From: Spirochaetota bacterium
GTDB lineage: Bacteria; Spirochaetota; UBA4802; UB4802
DNA length: 60,089 nt
Direction of reading: 5' to 3'
Assembly: GCA_029907515.1 (NCBI GenBank)
Contig: JARYLT010000007.1
Location: forward strand, 1 to 60,089
Made by a program: the position numbers and the translations under genes. Below, piece after piece: positions 53,636-59,378 of the stretch. Each line of letters opens with the position of its first letter. The first letter of the stretch is position 1. The notes below the pieces were generated by a model, which worked only from the letters and a program-made list of their open reading frames with translations, made no database searches and was not told the DNA's origin.

Positions 53636-54679
53636 TTATAATAGACTATCTAATACACGTTTACAATAGGGAATAGTTTCTTGCATATCCCTGAAAGGCT
53701 CTGATGGGCGCTGCATCCCTGCTTTACGACATACTGCCATGTGTTTGCAGGAAGCACAGGTGTTACAGTCATCTTCAATCCCATGCAAATAAACTTCGGA
53801 TGTGAGGATACGATGGAGTTTACCACGACTATAGGTACCTAACGATTGACAGGATGAATGGGCAATTGTTATACTTTTATCAGCCTTTATGGTAAGTCTT
53901 CCAGGCCGTATAAGATGCGGTGAACTGGAAAACCATGGTAGTTCCAACATTTGAGCTACTACTGCTGCAAGAGGATTTTCAAGTAATGAAACCGAAAATC
54001 CATATACATTAAGCAAAGAAATTATGCGTACCAGAGATACAAAATCATCAGGTGTTAACAATTCGTTGAATACTTTATCTGCATTCCCTGAAACACGAAT
54101 AAGCTGTATTAATGTAATTTCCTTTATTCCTGGAAATTTTTGAAATGCCCATTGAACAAAATGTGGCAGATGAGCTAAAAGGCTTTTCCCAACCACGCAA
54201 AAAAGGTATAGTGGGATATTGTGGTTAAGTGCCATTTCAATTGCCTGTGCTGTTTTTATAAATGAATTATAACCACGGAACGTATCATGAATATCTGGAA
54301 ATCCCAGTAAGCTGATTGAAAGATTCAGCCCTTTTATTGATTTAAGCTTCTTTAATGTGTTACTATCGAACAAAAAGCCATTTGTATTTAAAAAGATTGA
54401 CTCATACCCCATTACAATAGCATTATCACATATATCAAAAAGATGCCCCCACAATAATGGTTCACCACCTGTTATGTGGAGATGCCGATAGCCAATTTCA
54501 TAACCTTCCTTGATTATGGACAATACTGTTCTATAATCAAGATCATGATATTCACTACTACCAGATCGTACAAAGCAATAGGTACAGTTACTGGTACATC
54601 GTGTTGTAACTTCTATTGAAAGGTTTTCTTTTTTTATTGCTTCATGAATTTTTGATGGCATAGCATTAATCACTACCAT
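53636..54679 (-). CDS. Radical SAM protein with SPASM-like C-terminus
   Basis: A 347-residue radical SAM enzyme. The cluster motif is CTSNCTYC. SAM-binding HITGGEPLLW and SLLGFPDIHDTFRGY follow. The C-terminal Cys cluster (DDCNTCASCKHMAVCRKAG) resembles a SPASM/twitch auxiliary iron-sulfur site found in peptide-modifying enzymes. I chose ATG at 54679, which has GGGGA before it. Starts at 54715 or 54661 are possible. It overlaps the prenyl-synthase-like gene by 14 bp. A Nif11-like peptide gene lies divergently about 1.2 kb away, beyond the synthase gene, which supports a peptide-maturase role. The substrate is unproven. Confidence 0.85.
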   Translation of the reverse strand: MVVINAMPSKIHEAIKKENLSIEVTTRCTSNCTYCFVRSGSSEYHDLDYRTVLSIIKEGYEIGYRHLHITGGEPLLWGHLFDICDNAIVMGYESIFLNTNGFLFDSNTLKKLKSIKGLNLSISLLGFPDIHDTFRGYNSFIKTAQAIEMALNHNIPLYLFCVVGKSLLAHLPHFVQWAFQKFPGIKEITLIQLIRVSGNADKVFNELLTPDDFVSLVRIISLLNVYGFSVSLLENPLAAVVAQMLELPWFSSSPHLIRPGRLTIKADKSITIAHSSCQSLGTYSRGKLHRILTSEVYLHGIEDDCNTCASCKHMAVCRKAGMQRPSEPFRDMQETIPYCKRVLDSLL

Positions 54680-55700
54680 TGCATTCCCCATCATCAACTT
54701 CCATCCCCTGAACAAAATGAATGCAAACTTTCATTATTTCATCTGAAAGACCACATAAGCCAATATCTTCTGCATGTTTTGCTGCAGCTTGTAATTCTTT
54801 AATAATCCTTTTTGTAAGAACAGGGATGACACCCGAAGCCAGTATCATTTCTTCAAGCATATTTAAACTATTATTTTTATGCTCCTGTATATTTTCCTTT
54901 TCAATTATGGTAGTTCCTATTTTTAGAAGTTCATTCCAGTGATGACGAACATCTATGGGGAGGCTAAGAGTTACTGCAGTATCCCGTCCACAATTCAGAT
55001 CATATTTCATGTCCTGTATATCATCATATATACGCCAGGCTAAACCAAAATGCTCCAGTGAATACCGTACACCTTCTTCTAAAGACATATCCTTAACATA
55101 CTGTACCGTGAGGAGGGGAACAATGAGAGCTGTAGCCATTTGATCTTTGAAAGTATGTAGATATTCTTCCAGGTTATCAATACGCTTATTTATTATTATA
55201 CTTGCATAATATCCATCCAGATAGCTATTGACTATATCCTTCCCTTTATGAACCAATGAGCATAGCATTGCGATAGAATCCCAGAATAGTTTCCATGCCT
55301 GACTTCGGATCAGAAGAGTCAAATGATCTGGTGCAATCTGACTATCGTTAATATGATTATCTAAAGAATGAAGAAGCATAACCATTGCATGAGCTATTGC
55401 AGCATGATACATAAAATCCTGTTTAACCTGTACACCTGTACTCCTTGTTATGATATGAGGTATAACTGACCATATGGGCGAATAATAATTCCTGAAAAAA
55501 TCCACATTGTAACCTGGCTCAATACCAGAATGTTGTATAAAGAAGATCATTGCATTAGTTTGAGTTGAACGGGGAAGAGAACGCACAAGAGTAAGTATTG
55601 CATCGTTTAAAAGTGCATAGAAAGAAGCTTTATATTCATTACCAGCTGTGCTCCTATTTGTGGCAAAAGCATATAAATGTTCATGATCCCACGACTTCAT
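54666..55700 (-). CDS. Class I isoprenyl-diphosphate-synthase-like protein
   Basis: A protein of about 344 residues, nearly all helical. The second Asp-rich motif of trans-isoprenyl synthases is recognisable in WRIYDDIQDMKYDLNCGRDT. At the place of the first motif there is LLHSLDNHINDSQ, where D-N-H-x-N-D is a variant of DDxxD. These motifs bind Mg and the diphosphate of an allylic substrate. Variation in the first motif suggests a specialised or non-chain-elongating enzyme. I placed the start at 55700 (MKSWDHEHLY, weak AGG before it). The frame stays open upstream to 55778. It overlaps the radical SAM gene, so the two form an operon. Confidence 0.7.
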   Translation of the reverse strand: MKSWDHEHLYAFATNRSTAGNEYKASFYALLNDAILTLVRSLPRSTQTNAMIFFIQHSGIEPGYNVDFFRNYYSPIWSVIPHIITRSTGVQVKQDFMYHAAIAHAMVMLLHSLDNHINDSQIAPDHLTLLIRSQAWKLFWDSIAMLCSLVHKGKDIVNSYLDGYYASIIINKRIDNLEEYLHTFKDQMATALIVPLLTVQYVKDMSLEEGVRYSLEHFGLAWRIYDDIQDMKYDLNCGRDTAVTLSLPIDVRHHWNELLKIGTTIIEKENIQEHKNNSLNMLEEMILASGVIPVLTKRIIKELQAAAKHAEDIGLCGLSDEIMKVCIHFVQGMEVDDGECNGSD

Positions 55701-55809
55701 GAATAACCTGCATAATAAATTTGGGAAATAGCAACCTTTGGTATTAAAAACCATATATGTTTTTATGATAATCAACAATTATATTTTTATCAGGTTTAAA
55801 AATTTTTGA

Positions 55810-55839
55810 TTGAAAATTTTAATGTATACCCACTATGTT
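55810..55839 (+). promoter_or_regulatory. Candidate promoter for the Nif11-like peptide gene
   Basis: TTGAAA (55810-55815) and TATGTT (55834-55839) are 18 bp apart, about 40 bp upstream of the peptide ATG, in the short divergent gap. Confidence 0.4.
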
Positions 55840-55877
55840 AGGACATAAAAATTATATTTATCAGGAGGAAAGCAATC

Positions 55878-56093
55878 ATGGCAGATTTTATTGACTTTAT
55901 TGCAAAAGAAGCAGGAAATCGCGAAGTTGGGAAAAAATTCATTGAATTGCTTAAAAAAGGGGATGCAGCAGAATTAAAAAATTTTTTTGATTCAAATGGT
56001 TACTCAGACGTGTCGCTTGATGATTGTAAAAAACTTATACAAAACAAGCAAAATATTATTAATTCAGCTGAAACAAACCTTAAGGACTATTAA
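55878..56093 (+). CDS. Nif11-like small peptide (possible RiPP precursor or leader-like protein)
   Basis: A 71-residue protein with a very strong ribosome-binding site (AGGAGG). The pattern FIDFIAKEAGNREVGKKFIE, then ELKNFFDSNGYSDVSLDD, follows the Nif11 leader layout: helix, short helix, G-Y/F turn, final helix. Nif11-type leaders guide modification enzymes to natural-product peptides. The tail after the domain is about 20 residues (KLIQNKQNIINSAETNLKDY) with a single Cys just before it and no Gly-Gly cleavage site. If it is a precursor, its core is short and atypical. It is divergent from the prenyl-synthase-like/radical SAM operon and 3 bp upstream of a sensor kinase gene. Confidence 0.6.
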   Translation: MADFIDFIAKEAGNREVGKKFIELLKKGDAAELKNFFDSNGYSDVSLDDCKKLIQNKQNIINSAETNLKDY

Positions 56094-56096
56094 ATT

Positions 56097-57155
56097 GTGA
56101 ACATTTTTTACAGAATATTCCTATCATTATCATTTTTGCTTTTTATATTTCACACCCCGGTTTTATCTTCTGATCTTAAAGAACATTATGTTTTTACTCT
56201 TTCTGAAACAATTATGCCTTTACCAAAATTATGGTATTTCCAGGCTGAGGATTTATATATTTATAAAGAAAAAAATATTGATCATTCTAACTGGCAGATC
56301 AGGGCTATAAATCAACCATGGCATACTCAAAAAGAATTTCGAAATTATAAGGGAAATGTTTGGTACAGGCTTGTTTTCAACTGCAATCTTTGTAATGACT
56401 ATAAAGGTGACCTTGCCCTGTTGGTGCCAATTCATTATCGAGGAGCTCAATTTTATTTCAATGGGGTATTGGTTAAAGAAACACGTCCCTTTATTAATGG
56501 CATTTCCCCACTGAAGCTTGGTAAACCTGATATTATTATTCTCCCCAGTAATTTAATAAAAAATGAACACAATCTAATCGCTATTCGAATAGGATCTTTT
56601 GATTATAATTCTGGTTTTGAAGGCATACTGCATATAGGGACTTTGCCCGAAATAACAAAAAAATTTATTCAAAATACTCTGTATTATGGGCTTTTAATAG
56701 GTATTACTTTATTTTTATCCTTATATTTTATTATTCTTTATTACTACCGGAAAAAAGAGCGTTTTTATCTTTATTTCTCTGGTATGGCTTTTTCATTTGC
56801 GTTATGGGCAGCAGGATATGTTGGTATCATATTCTGGATTTTTGACAATAGAATAGCCTATCTTGTTGCAGCATATTGTGGTTCTGTAAGTATTGTTATC
56901 TGTGCGATCTTCTTTATCCACTCCTTTTTAGATTTACGATATAACCTGTTTTCAAAAATTCTTCTTTCACTATTACTATTCTTACTAATCTACTGTACTA
57001 CAGAAATCATTACTACTGGATTAGTTGAATCATACCGTATGTATCTATTCAAGATTTTCCTGTTAACCTGCCTGATATACATGATTTATTCTGCAATCCT
57101 ATGTATATATGCAATCAGAATACACAGACCTCATGCTGGGAAAATATTGATATGA
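56097..57155 (+). CDS. 7TM sensor part of a hybrid histidine kinase, ended by an in-frame TGA
   Basis: A 352-residue product starting at GTG 56097, 3 bp after the Nif11-like gene. A signal peptide (residues 1-25) is followed by an extracellular all-beta domain (about 30-190, with NVWYRLVF). Then come membrane helices of the 7TMR-DISM type (TLYYGLLIGITLFLSLYFII onward). The frame stops at TGA 57153-57155 after GKILI. In the same frame it continues without another stop as IGTAYFFIFLSILTWLHIID into the kinase. The last two or three of the seven membrane helices therefore lie beyond the stop. The two pieces were clearly one gene of 1093 codons. TGA serves as a normal stop elsewhere in the window, for example at the ends of kamA and the lipoprotein gene. 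Confidence 0.75.
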   Translation: MNIFYRIFLSLSFLLFIFHTPVLSSDLKEHYVFTLSETIMPLPKLWYFQAEDLYIYKEKNIDHSNWQIRAINQPWHTQKEFRNYKGNVWYRLVFNCNLCNDYKGDLALLVPIHYRGAQFYFNGVLVKETRPFINGISPLKLGKPDIIILPSNLIKNEHNLIAIRIGSFDYNSGFEGILHIGTLPEITKKFIQNTLYYGLLIGITLFLSLYFIILYYYRKKERFYLYFSGMAFSFALWAAGYVGIIFWIFDNRIAYLVAAYCGSVSIVICAIFFIHSFLDLRYNLFSKILLSLLLFLLIYCTTEIITTGLVESYRMYLFKIFLLTCLIYMIYSAILCIYAIRIHRPHAGKILI

Positions 57156-57242
57156 ATTGGAACAGCTTATTTCTTTATATTCTTATCAATTCTTACATGG
57201 CTTCATATTATTGACTATACCCCTTCATCAATTGAACCATTT

Positions 57243-59378
57243 ATGGCAATGATATTTGTTTTTTCACTTGTCCTTGCTTCGCGGTATGCACAGGTTTTTT
57301 CAGATCTTGAAAAAGCCCATGCAAAACTTATTGTCCTTGATAAGATGAAAGATGACTTTCTTGCTACCACAAGCCATGAACTTAAAACCCCTCTTCATGG
57401 AATAATGGGCATTGCCGAATCTATTATGGATGGCTCCTGTGGACCAGTGACCGAAAAACAAATGCAAAATCTGGCTCTTATACGTGATGAGGCATCACAT
57501 CTTAACACAATGGTAAGTGACATCCTTGACTTCAGCAAGCTTCGTGCCGGTAAGGTTGATCTATTCTTAGAGCATATCCTGGTTGATCAGGTTGCAGCAA
57601 CGGTTGTATCGCTTTTAACACCTGAAGCTCATAAAAAGGGACTATCGCTTACATTAAAATCTTCAGGACCCTGTGAGATAGTTGCTGATCGTAACCGCCT
57701 TAGACAGATTATTATTAATCTTGTGGGCAATGCAATTAAATTTTCAGATAAAGGCACCATTACAGTAGATGTCCAATCCTCATTTGAAGGTGTAACAATT
57801 ACCGTGAGCGACGAAGGCCCAGGTATTGATGAAGCTGATAGGGAACGGATATGGAATCCATTTGTACAGGCGGAAAGTTCTGATAGTCGTCATTACGGCG
57901 GGGCAGGCCTTGGGCTTCCCATAACAAAATATTTAGTTGAACTTCATGGTGGGTTTATTCATGTTGAAAGCCAAAAAGGTAAAGGGACATCCTTTATTGT
58001 TACACTTCCAAAAGAGCCCAGAACTCCCGGGATACCAAAAATCAAGCAAATCGAAGTTACCAGTGATGCCCTTGTGTTGCCTCAGGAAATTGCTCATTCA
58101 TCTACGGAACAGGATGAAGCGCTTGCAAAAATCCCGTTTTACACAAAAGCCCGAATACTGGTTGTTGATGATGATGAGGTTAACCGTAAAGTAATTGAGG
58201 GTTTCTGCACAATTGCTGGATATGAACTCATACATGCACATGATGGGCCAACAGCACTACAAGTTCTGGAGACACACAATATTGATCTTGTGCTTCTTGA
58301 TCTTATGCTTCCCGGGATGAGCGGGTATGAGGTTTGCCAGAAAATACGCCAGTCAGAAAAATTTTCAACCATACCCGTTATTATGGTAACAGCACGCGAC
58401 AGTGCATCAGACATGGTGCGGGGATTTGTTTCCGGTGCCAATGATTACATTACCAAGCCCTTTACAAGAAGTGAGCTTCTTATCAGAATTGAAAATCAAT
58501 TAGCTATTAAACAAATGCTGGAGCTAGAGCATTCAATTGTGCACGAATTAAACAAAGAGATGGGATTGGACAGGAGTCTTTATCAAAGAAGCATTGAGTT
58601 AAAGCAAATGGCAACACAGATACTTGCCTGGGAACGAGTAATCAAGGAAGATATGGAAGTTGCCAGAGCCTTTCAAAAACGCCTCATGGCTTGCCCCACA
58701 CACATACCAGGTGTCAATTTCCATATTTTGTATCAACCACTAGCAGACCTCAGCGGTGATGTGTATGATATTATTAAACTCACGCCAGACATCATCAGGG
58801 TATTTATAGCTGATGCTACAGGACACGGGATTACTGCTTCCCTCAATACTGTAAAAATTCTTTCAGAATACTCATCTGTTAAGGAAACAATGCATTCTCC
58901 TCAGGATTTGCTCACCTTTTTAAACCAGCGATTCATGCAATTATTCAAGGATTACGGAATAATTTTTACATGCCTTATTGCTGATATTCATCTGAAGGAA
59001 GAAAAGATTTCAATAGTGTCAGCAGGGCATCCTCCTGCATGCGTTATCTCTAATGGTACTGTTAACTCTATTAAACCCCATGGACCAATCATTGGGTTAG
59101 CTTCCAATTATCAATATCAACCTACAATAGTGCCCTTTAAAAATAATGATATATTCCTTCTGTATACTGATGGTCTGCCAGAATCTATATATGCTCAGAA
59201 TAAATATTCAAATGATTCTTTAGAGAATGAGTATGATAAACTTAAAGAAATAATTGAAAAGAACTATGATAGCGGTTCATTGGAAAATCTTTGTACATCG
59301 CTTCTGCGATTAGATTCTTTTGAATCCAACACTTTTATCACTGACGATATAACTATTATTGCTTTTCAGAAAGAATAA
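57243..59378 (+). CDS. Hybrid histidine kinase with receiver and SpoIIE-type phosphatase domains (downstream part of the interrupted gene)
   Basis: 711 residues from the first ATG after the TGA; that ATG has no ribosome-binding site. Domains in order: HisKA (FLATTSHELKTPLHGI); HATPase (NLVGNAIKFSDKG, SDEGPGIDE, GGAGLGLPITKYLVELHGG); receiver (ILVVDDDEVNRKV, phosphoacceptor Asp in LVLLDLMLPGMSG, ITKPF); a short coiled coil; and a PP2C/SpoIIE phosphatase (DLSGDVYD, IADATGHGITASL, LLYTDGLPES). The output would be dephosphorylation of an anti-sigma antagonist such as a STAS protein. All catalytic motifs are intact, so any inactivation by the TGA is recent, or the stop is read through. Confidence 0.85.
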   Translation: MAMIFVFSLVLASRYAQVFSDLEKAHAKLIVLDKMKDDFLATTSHELKTPLHGIMGIAESIMDGSCGPVTEKQMQNLALIRDEASHLNTMVSDILDFSKLRAGKVDLFLEHILVDQVAATVVSLLTPEAHKKGLSLTLKSSGPCEIVADRNRLRQIIINLVGNAIKFSDKGTITVDVQSSFEGVTITVSDEGPGIDEADRERIWNPFVQAESSDSRHYGGAGLGLPITKYLVELHGGFIHVESQKGKGTSFIVTLPKEPRTPGIPKIKQIEVTSDALVLPQEIAHSSTEQDEALAKIPFYTKARILVVDDDEVNRKVIEGFCTIAGYELIHAHDGPTALQVLETHNIDLVLLDLMLPGMSGYEVCQKIRQSEKFSTIPVIMVTARDSASDMVRGFVSGANDYITKPFTRSELLIRIENQLAIKQMLELEHSIVHELNKEMGLDRSLYQRSIELKQMATQILAWERVIKEDMEVARAFQKRLMACPTHIPGVNFHILYQPLADLSGDVYDIIKLTPDIIRVFIADATGHGITASLNTVKILSEYSSVKETMHSPQDLLTFLNQRFMQLFKDYGIIFTCLIADIHLKEEKISIVSAGHPPACVISNGTVNSIKPHGPIIGLASNYQYQPTIVPFKNNDIFLLYTDGLPESIYAQNKYSNDSLENEYDKLKEIIEKNYDSGSLENLCTSLLRLDSFESNTFITDDITIIAFQKE

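Follow-up and report, generated by a model that had tools for sequence, protein, structure and literature searches.

The divergent pairing of two enzyme genes with genes for a small peptide and a sensor kinase in a Spirochaetota bacterium (GenBank assembly GCA_029907515.1, contig JARYLT010000007.1) raises the question of what the enzymes make and whether the kinase perceives it. We addressed this question in a stretch of DNA of 60,089 nucleotides, hereafter the window. The original prediction for this stretch, made from the sequence alone, held that a radical SAM protein and an isoprenyl-synthase-like enzyme act on a Nif11-like peptide or make a prenylated signal that a 7TM hybrid kinase senses.

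Layout, conservation and decay of the locus

All four genes were found where they had been predicted, within positions 53636-59378 of the window, and the arrangement claimed for them was borne out (Table 1). The radical SAM and synthase-like open reading frames overlap on the (-) strand, and the peptide and kinase genes diverge from them on the (+) strand, the kinase starting 4 bp past the peptide. The true start of the radical SAM gene is probably an ATG located about 8-13 codons inside the listed TTG, and the ATG chosen for the synthase agrees better with its homologues than the open end of the ORF at 55778. A promoter scan of the intergenic region performed no better than on shuffled sequences. 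The scan of viral contigs with the radical SAM protein gave no match, and thus there is no sign of a phage origin. An IS200-like Y1 transposase gene (PF01797; 59693-60089) lies just past the kinase at the end of the contig.

Table 1. Coordinates of the features of the locus within the window.
Feature	Position	Strand	Remarks
Radical SAM enzyme	53636-54715	(-)	359 aa from listed TTG
Trans-prenyl-diphosphate-synthase-like protein	ORF 54666-55778; gene 54666-55700	(-)	Homology begins near ATG 55698-55700
Second Asp-rich motif of synthase preceded by Arg, RIYDDIQD	55011-55034	(-)	Family pattern [RK]xxDDxxD
First Asp-rich motif of synthase, DNHIND	55344-55361	(-)	Family pattern D[DN]Hxx[DE]
Divergent intergenic region, 177 bp	55701-55877		Synthase ATG to peptide ATG
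Ribosome-binding site of peptide, AGGAGGA	55863-55869		8 bp upstream of ATG
Putative precursor peptide, 71 aa	55878-56093	(+)	Remote Nif11-type leader (by profile), short variable tail, C-terminal Tyr
C-terminal Tyr codon	56088-56090	(+)	Proposed modification site; stop TAA directly after
Kinase gene, 5' part	56097-57155	(+)	Signal-peptide-like start, extracytoplasmic sensor region, most of 7TMR-DISM 7TM domain; ends at in-frame TGA
Kinase gene, 3' part	57156-59378	(+)	Same frame; internal ATG 57243; rest of 7TM, HisKA, HATPase, REC, SpoIIE phosphatase

The whole set (peptide, 7TM histidine kinase, synthase and radical SAM enzyme) was detected in about 16-18 of the 46 genomes of the host's order within the Spirochaetota. 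Searching with a single synthase sequence gave hits in 17 of 98 relatives, and an alignment search recovered the synthase from 18 of the 46 order genomes; the scan of genome contigs with the single synthase sequence gave no match, whereas the alignment scan did. The radical SAM family was present in 18 of the 46 order genomes, in a single copy each, and 17 genomes carried both enzymes, the two mismatches being a synthase fragment of 47 residues and a radical SAM gene at a contig edge. The peptide was recovered from 19 of the 46 genomes (E < 1e-8), 16 of which also had the synthase. Outside the host's order only two matches were obtained among 393 sampled Spirochaetota genomes. A genome from a distant spirochaete family (G605) contained all four genes, likewise in the divergent arrangement, and another outside the order (G073) gave a weak match. 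In the phylum around locus L051, 6 of 395 sampled genomes matched. The named relatives are metagenome-assembled genomes of Spirochaetes and Deltaproteobacteria. The Firmicutes label of L048 may be wrong, because its fused synthase and its kinase are of the spirochaete type, like those of L045. In the Deltaproteobacteria the three-gene core adjoins a nucleotide-cyclase/AAA protein and no kinase. Since the same neighbourhood is seen in several families and also outside the phylum, and since the dN/dS of the peptide is 0.06, the locus is beyond chance, and a lack of conservation in relatives, which would have refuted the original prediction, can be ruled out.

Measured against the locus of a congener (L020), the peptide had a dN/dS of 0.06, similar to the housekeeping genes on either side; the values were higher for the kinase (0.14), the radical SAM gene (0.30) and the synthase (0.40). 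All genes are thus under purifying selection, the enzymes evolving faster than their neighbours yet remaining constrained. Within the genus the locus occupies one syntenic site: G003 has it intact, in G004 it is truncated by the end of the contig, in G002 it is largely deprived of its enzyme genes, and in G001 other genes have taken its place. The locus therefore decays within the genus, as seen from the nonsense codon in the window, the deletion in the G002 locus (L022) and the absence in G001. In L022 (9471-10582) a large internal deletion has joined the synthase to the radical SAM gene, whereas the peptide and the kinase are kept, which possibly represents a receiver without a maker.

The 7TM hybrid kinase described by the original prediction is present directly after the peptide and its domains fit, but its reading frame is interrupted by a TGA at 57153-57155, which divides it into the ORFs 56097-57155 and 57243-59378 (HisKA-HATPase-REC-SpoIIE). 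In L020 this site encodes Gly (GGA), and the kinase is one intact ORF of 1,093 aa with 7TMR-DISM, HisKA, HATPase, REC and SpoIIE domains. We rejected recoding of the TGA because TGA terminates 7 of the 46 long ORFs of the window and because the site is Gly in L020. The codon reflects either a nonsense mutation of recent origin or an error of assembly and, unless the latter applies, the kinase copy of the window may be impaired. The TGA, the partial deletion of the enzyme genes in one congener and the absence of the locus from another would also suit a decaying remnant without function in the window strain. However, dN/dS against L020 is low for both kinase halves, the peptide and the enzymes, and one wrong base in a draft assembly would give an identical picture. 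We regard such a remnant as somewhat unlikely; it would be compatible with our main explanation for the relatives.

The peptide, its terminal tyrosine and its kinase

Among the 36 peptide homologues, which are all that were collected, 33 end exactly in Tyr, as compared to 20 of 540 ORFs (3.7%) of the same loci. The 36 include near-identical sequences, and the independent cases are fewer. The aligned peptides have a common leader (DFI near the start, then VS..DC..LI.NK) followed by a tail that varies in length and sequence, and the tails that end in Tyr are highly unlike one another (VKFAY, VQPLY, RDDGY, GKHCY, HNRDY and PLKGY). Three homologues depart from the terminal Tyr: L130, where the frame extends 14 residues beyond the Tyr, L124 and L125:10668-10892. 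The peptides at L124 5550-5843 and L125 10668-10892 are paralogous, end in EEAIP[YF]LFLT[HR] and have no kinase or enzymes adjoining.

Resemblance to Nif11, suggested for the window peptide by the original prediction together with its strong ribosome-binding site, is found at the profile level but is only remote. The peptide remained below the Pfam and NCBIfam cut-offs for the Nif11 family, with sub-threshold matches only. When the peptide profile was compared with a profile of 12 Nif11 proteins from the Deltaproteobacteria-side phylum, the match had a probability of 93.7% and a score of 38.1, and the best of 100 column-shuffled controls scored 13.7. Because this score lies far above the controls, the peptide is, as judged from profiles, a distant relative of Nif11-type leaders whose core is very short, and not a member of an unrelated housekeeping family, an outcome that would have counted against the prediction. 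Foldseek searches with the peptide model (pLDDT 69) gave no usable matches, and the peptide profile matched PDB sequences at chance level only.

In the Spirochaetota, whenever the contig extends far enough past a Tyr-ended peptide, a 7TM kinase follows on the same strand, in some loci after two peptides in tandem. The only Spirochaetota peptides that have room downstream and lack an adjoining 7TM kinase are the two differently ended homologues. Paralogous peptide-kinase pairs also occur away from the enzymes in L123, L125 and L126. A ketoacyl-ACP-synthase-III-like gene lies just upstream of the orphan pairs in L125 (6229-7840, PF08545) and L126 (828-2299).

The peptide and the kinase stay together where the enzymes are lost or located elsewhere (L022, L123, L125 and L126), as an unmodified adaptor or regulator of the kinase might. 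However, the near-perfect co-inheritance of the peptide with the enzymes, its terminal Tyr and its remote similarity to Nif11 leaders speak against this role, which we consider highly improbable. The original prediction had left undecided whether the peptide is a substrate or an adaptor. Because the terminal Tyr is kept in 33 of 36 homologues despite the varying tail, and because of the pairing with the kinase, a substrate is now strongly favoured, with the chemistry remaining inferred.

The two enzymes and their companion genes

The synthase-like protein is barely recognisable by sequence: the window protein scored 12.2 bits against PF00348 (cut-off 27 bits, E = 0.1), and the best family member reached E = 0.0012. 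Its AlphaFold2 model is all-helical and confident (pLDDT 81), and the best 50 PDB matches in Foldseek were all prenyl synthases or prenyltransferases, although with moderate TM-scores (about 0.5-0.7). They included Ord1, which farnesylates free tryptophan (PMC13290415). The first Asp-rich motif was present in 27 of 27 synthases examined and the second, AW[RK]xxDDxxDxxxD, in 26, the remaining one being unresolved at that site. The assignment to the trans-prenyl-synthase superfamily is therefore supported by the predicted fold and both motifs, and the isoprenyl-synthase-like enzyme of the original prediction can be retained on these grounds. In L045 and L048 the synthase is fused to the radical SAM enzyme.

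The residue before the second Asp-rich motif is basic, Arg and in one case Lys, whereas prenyl synthases usually have Gln there; in two PDB prenyl synthases FQ aligned over the WR of the family. In PalQ, Gln197, three residues before the first Asp of the second motif, was proposed to recognise the indole of the C-terminal Trp (PMC10853753), and this position is Arg/Lys in the present synthases. We infer that the basic residue might bind the carboxylate or the phenol of the terminal Tyr, and we propose that the synthase is a Tyr prenyltransferase.

Isopentenyl-diphosphate isomerase genes above the curated cut-off were found in L026 and L031. Geranylgeranyl-reductase-family genes occur in L021, L024, L084, L127 and L132, and L028 has one that forms a fusion with the synthase; the L021 gene exceeded the NCBIfam cut-off, and the others were below it or detected by BLAST only. 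The link to prenyl chemistry is strengthened by the fold, the motifs and these neighbouring isoprenoid genes. The isoprenoid genes would equally suit a synthase that makes only a prenyl diphosphate or a terpene sensed by the kinase, with the peptide as an enzyme carrier or regulator, and so would the retention of both Asp-rich motifs, the second of which is degenerate in ComQ. However, the usual Gln is replaced by Arg/Lys in all resolved family members, and a carrier role leaves the kept terminal Tyr amid a varying tail unexplained. We find this explanation quite improbable.

The radical SAM enzyme of the window matched PF04055 with E = 1.5e-20, and the CxxxCxxC motif (C40, C44 and C47) is invariant in its family. 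Four C-terminal Cys (C320, C323, C329 and C351) are also invariant and are consistent with a SPASM-like region, probably with one auxiliary cluster. They are compatible with the SPASM-like cluster noted earlier, but the invariant C-terminal Cys number only four, against seven in the SPASM pattern. The protein belongs to none of the named NCBIfam families (best score 65 bits against a cut-off of 268), and its score against MftC (TIGR03962) was 53.4 bits with a cut-off of 265. The matches to AhbC, AhbD, NirJ, MftC, PqqE and others reflect the common core only and do not identify a reaction. By analogy with MftC, and because the C-terminal carboxylate is free, our guess is that the terminal Tyr undergoes oxidative decarboxylation.

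These observations also bear on a route like that of mycofactocin, in which the radical SAM enzyme and its partners would convert the C-terminal Tyr to a small molecule that is cut off, with prenylation late or part of it and the tail uninformative. An invariant terminal Tyr without conserved neighbours would fit, as would the relatives of the radical SAM enzyme (MftC, PqqE, AhbC and AhbD) and the varied tailoring genes (B12-type radical SAM, methyltransferase and geranylgeranyl-reductase-like). However, the dehydrogenase partners are absent. Moreover, wherever there is room downstream, the Tyr-ended peptides of spirochaetes each have a kinase of their own, including the paralogous pairs in L123, L125 and L126, which fits sequence-specific signals. 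We consider the small-molecule route improbable.

Further companion genes vary among the loci. Genes for B12-type or other radical SAM proteins and a methyltransferase were found in several of them. A C25-family (gingipain-type) peptidase gene lies on the opposite strand about 100 bp from the peptide in three deltaproteobacterial loci, L038 (7935-10058), L041 (12475-14622) and L133, and could possibly encode the leader protease. The genes have no conserved exporter in their vicinity, and the spirochaete loci lack a conserved protease as well. In L084 (10976-12031), a protein of 351 aa without a Pfam match is encoded between geranylgeranyl-reductase-like and thioesterase-like genes near the peptide; it contains a NEGCLYQCPY stretch, which we take to resemble peptidase U32.

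The partner in the Spirochaetota is a 7TMR-DISM kinase, usually of the HisKA-REC-SpoIIE type. A HisKA_3 kinase with an adjoining LuxR-type regulator occurs in L031 and L125, the regulator being identified by Pfam in the former and by sequence resemblance only in the latter. In the deltaproteobacterial L038 the synthase is preceded by a gene for a protein with zinc-ribbon, nucleotide-cyclase, AAA and TPR domains. Homologues are present in the other deltaproteobacterial loci, the L040 copy as called containing the AAA domain only. From its position we infer that this cyclase/AAA protein may be the receiver in Deltaproteobacteria.

A proposed signalling system and its known counterparts

The explanation that we prefer, and hold to be somewhat more probable than not, is that the locus is a peptide signalling system like PalPXQ and ComQXP, moved from Trp to a C-terminal Tyr and with an added radical SAM step. 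The 71-aa precursor with its Nif11-like leader would present a short, fast-varying tail ending in Tyr, which the trans-prenyl-synthase-like protein would prenylate from a prenyl diphosphate. The radical SAM enzyme would alter the same end, possibly by the decarboxylation guessed at above. Once freed, the short modified tail would be perceived at the cell exterior by its partner, the 7TMR-DISM hybrid kinase, and this kinase would relay the signal through its REC and SpoIIE phosphatase domains. The conserved gene set, the terminal Tyr, the predicted fold with its motifs and the peptide-kinase pairing are observed. Prenylation and the radical step are inferred, and so are export, cleavage and sensing. 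The idea that the enzymes act on the peptide or make a prenylated signal is thus supported by co-inheritance and the terminal Tyr, although not at the level of chemistry. Against the preferred explanation, no product is known, a receiver on the outside is not universal (deltaproteobacterial loci have the cyclase/AAA protein), and the three homologues named above depart from the terminal Tyr.

No paper on the present gene set was found among the open-licence papers searched, which agrees with the claim that no described system has this set, but PalPXQ is a partial precedent (PMC10853753). Nif11 leaders (PF07862, TIGR03798) resemble the peptide over the leader domain at the profile level, whereas the peptide has no Gly-Gly cleavage site and a very short tail. 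The MftA precursor of mycofactocin ends in Tyr. Mycofactocin (MftA/MftC) thus shares a radical SAM enzyme and a Tyr-ended precursor with the present locus, but it has another gene set, no prenyl enzyme and a redox cofactor as its product. We rejected membership because the radical SAM enzyme falls far below the MftC cut-off.

ComQXPA of Bacillus likewise has a prenyl-synthase-like enzyme, a precursor of 52-73 residues with a variable tail and a multi-pass membrane kinase (PMC4008528, PMC5331326). However, ComX carries its Trp close to the end and not as the last residue, the second Asp-rich motif of ComQ is incomplete and there is no radical SAM enzyme. The HisKA_3 kinase and LuxR-type response regulator of L031 reproduce the ComP/ComA layout, and in L125 only the kinase part does so by Pfam; the window kinase is HisKA-REC-SpoIIE instead. 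Membership in ComQXPA, for which a census found no case outside Firmicutes (PMC4008528), was rejected because the window peptide contains no Trp, expected within the last ~10 residues, and because the window lacks the HisKA_3 and LuxR layout.

The closest likeness is to PalP-PalX-PalQ of Paenibacillus alvei (PMC10853753). The three genes described there encode a histidine kinase, a precursor of the leader type (NHLP) whose last residue is a conserved aromatic one, and a prenyltransferase that resembles trans-prenyl synthases and contains Asp-rich motifs; a radical SAM enzyme is not among them. The adjacency of a kinase, a leader-type precursor and a trans-IDS-like enzyme is met in the present locus, whereas the C-terminal Trp, a defining feature, and the Gln before the second motif are absent. 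The present family has Tyr and Arg/Lys instead, includes the radical SAM gene in its core and occurs in Spirochaetota and Deltaproteobacteria rather than in Paenibacillus. According to a 2026 review (PMC13290415), every trans-IDS-like peptide prenyltransferase characterised so far has Trp as its target. Both precedents, ComQXPA and PalPXQ, concern Trp and belong to Firmicutes, and in the papers found this kind of signalling is known only on Trp in Gram-positive bacteria. We tentatively suggest, without yet being able to call it probable, that a Tyr-directed trans-prenyl-synthase-like family and a radical SAM enzyme acting on the same residue make pheromones that are received by 7TM kinases in Spirochaetota and by cyclase/AAA proteins in Deltaproteobacteria. 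If true, prenylation and radical SAM chemistry would meet on a single residue, 7TMR-DISM kinases would gain a proposed ligand, and acceptor choice could be tested, the hypothesis being that it depends on the replacement of Gln by Arg ahead of the second Asp-rich motif. It would also provide a counterpart of ComQ and PalQ outside Firmicutes and extend prenylated-peptide signalling to two diderm groups.
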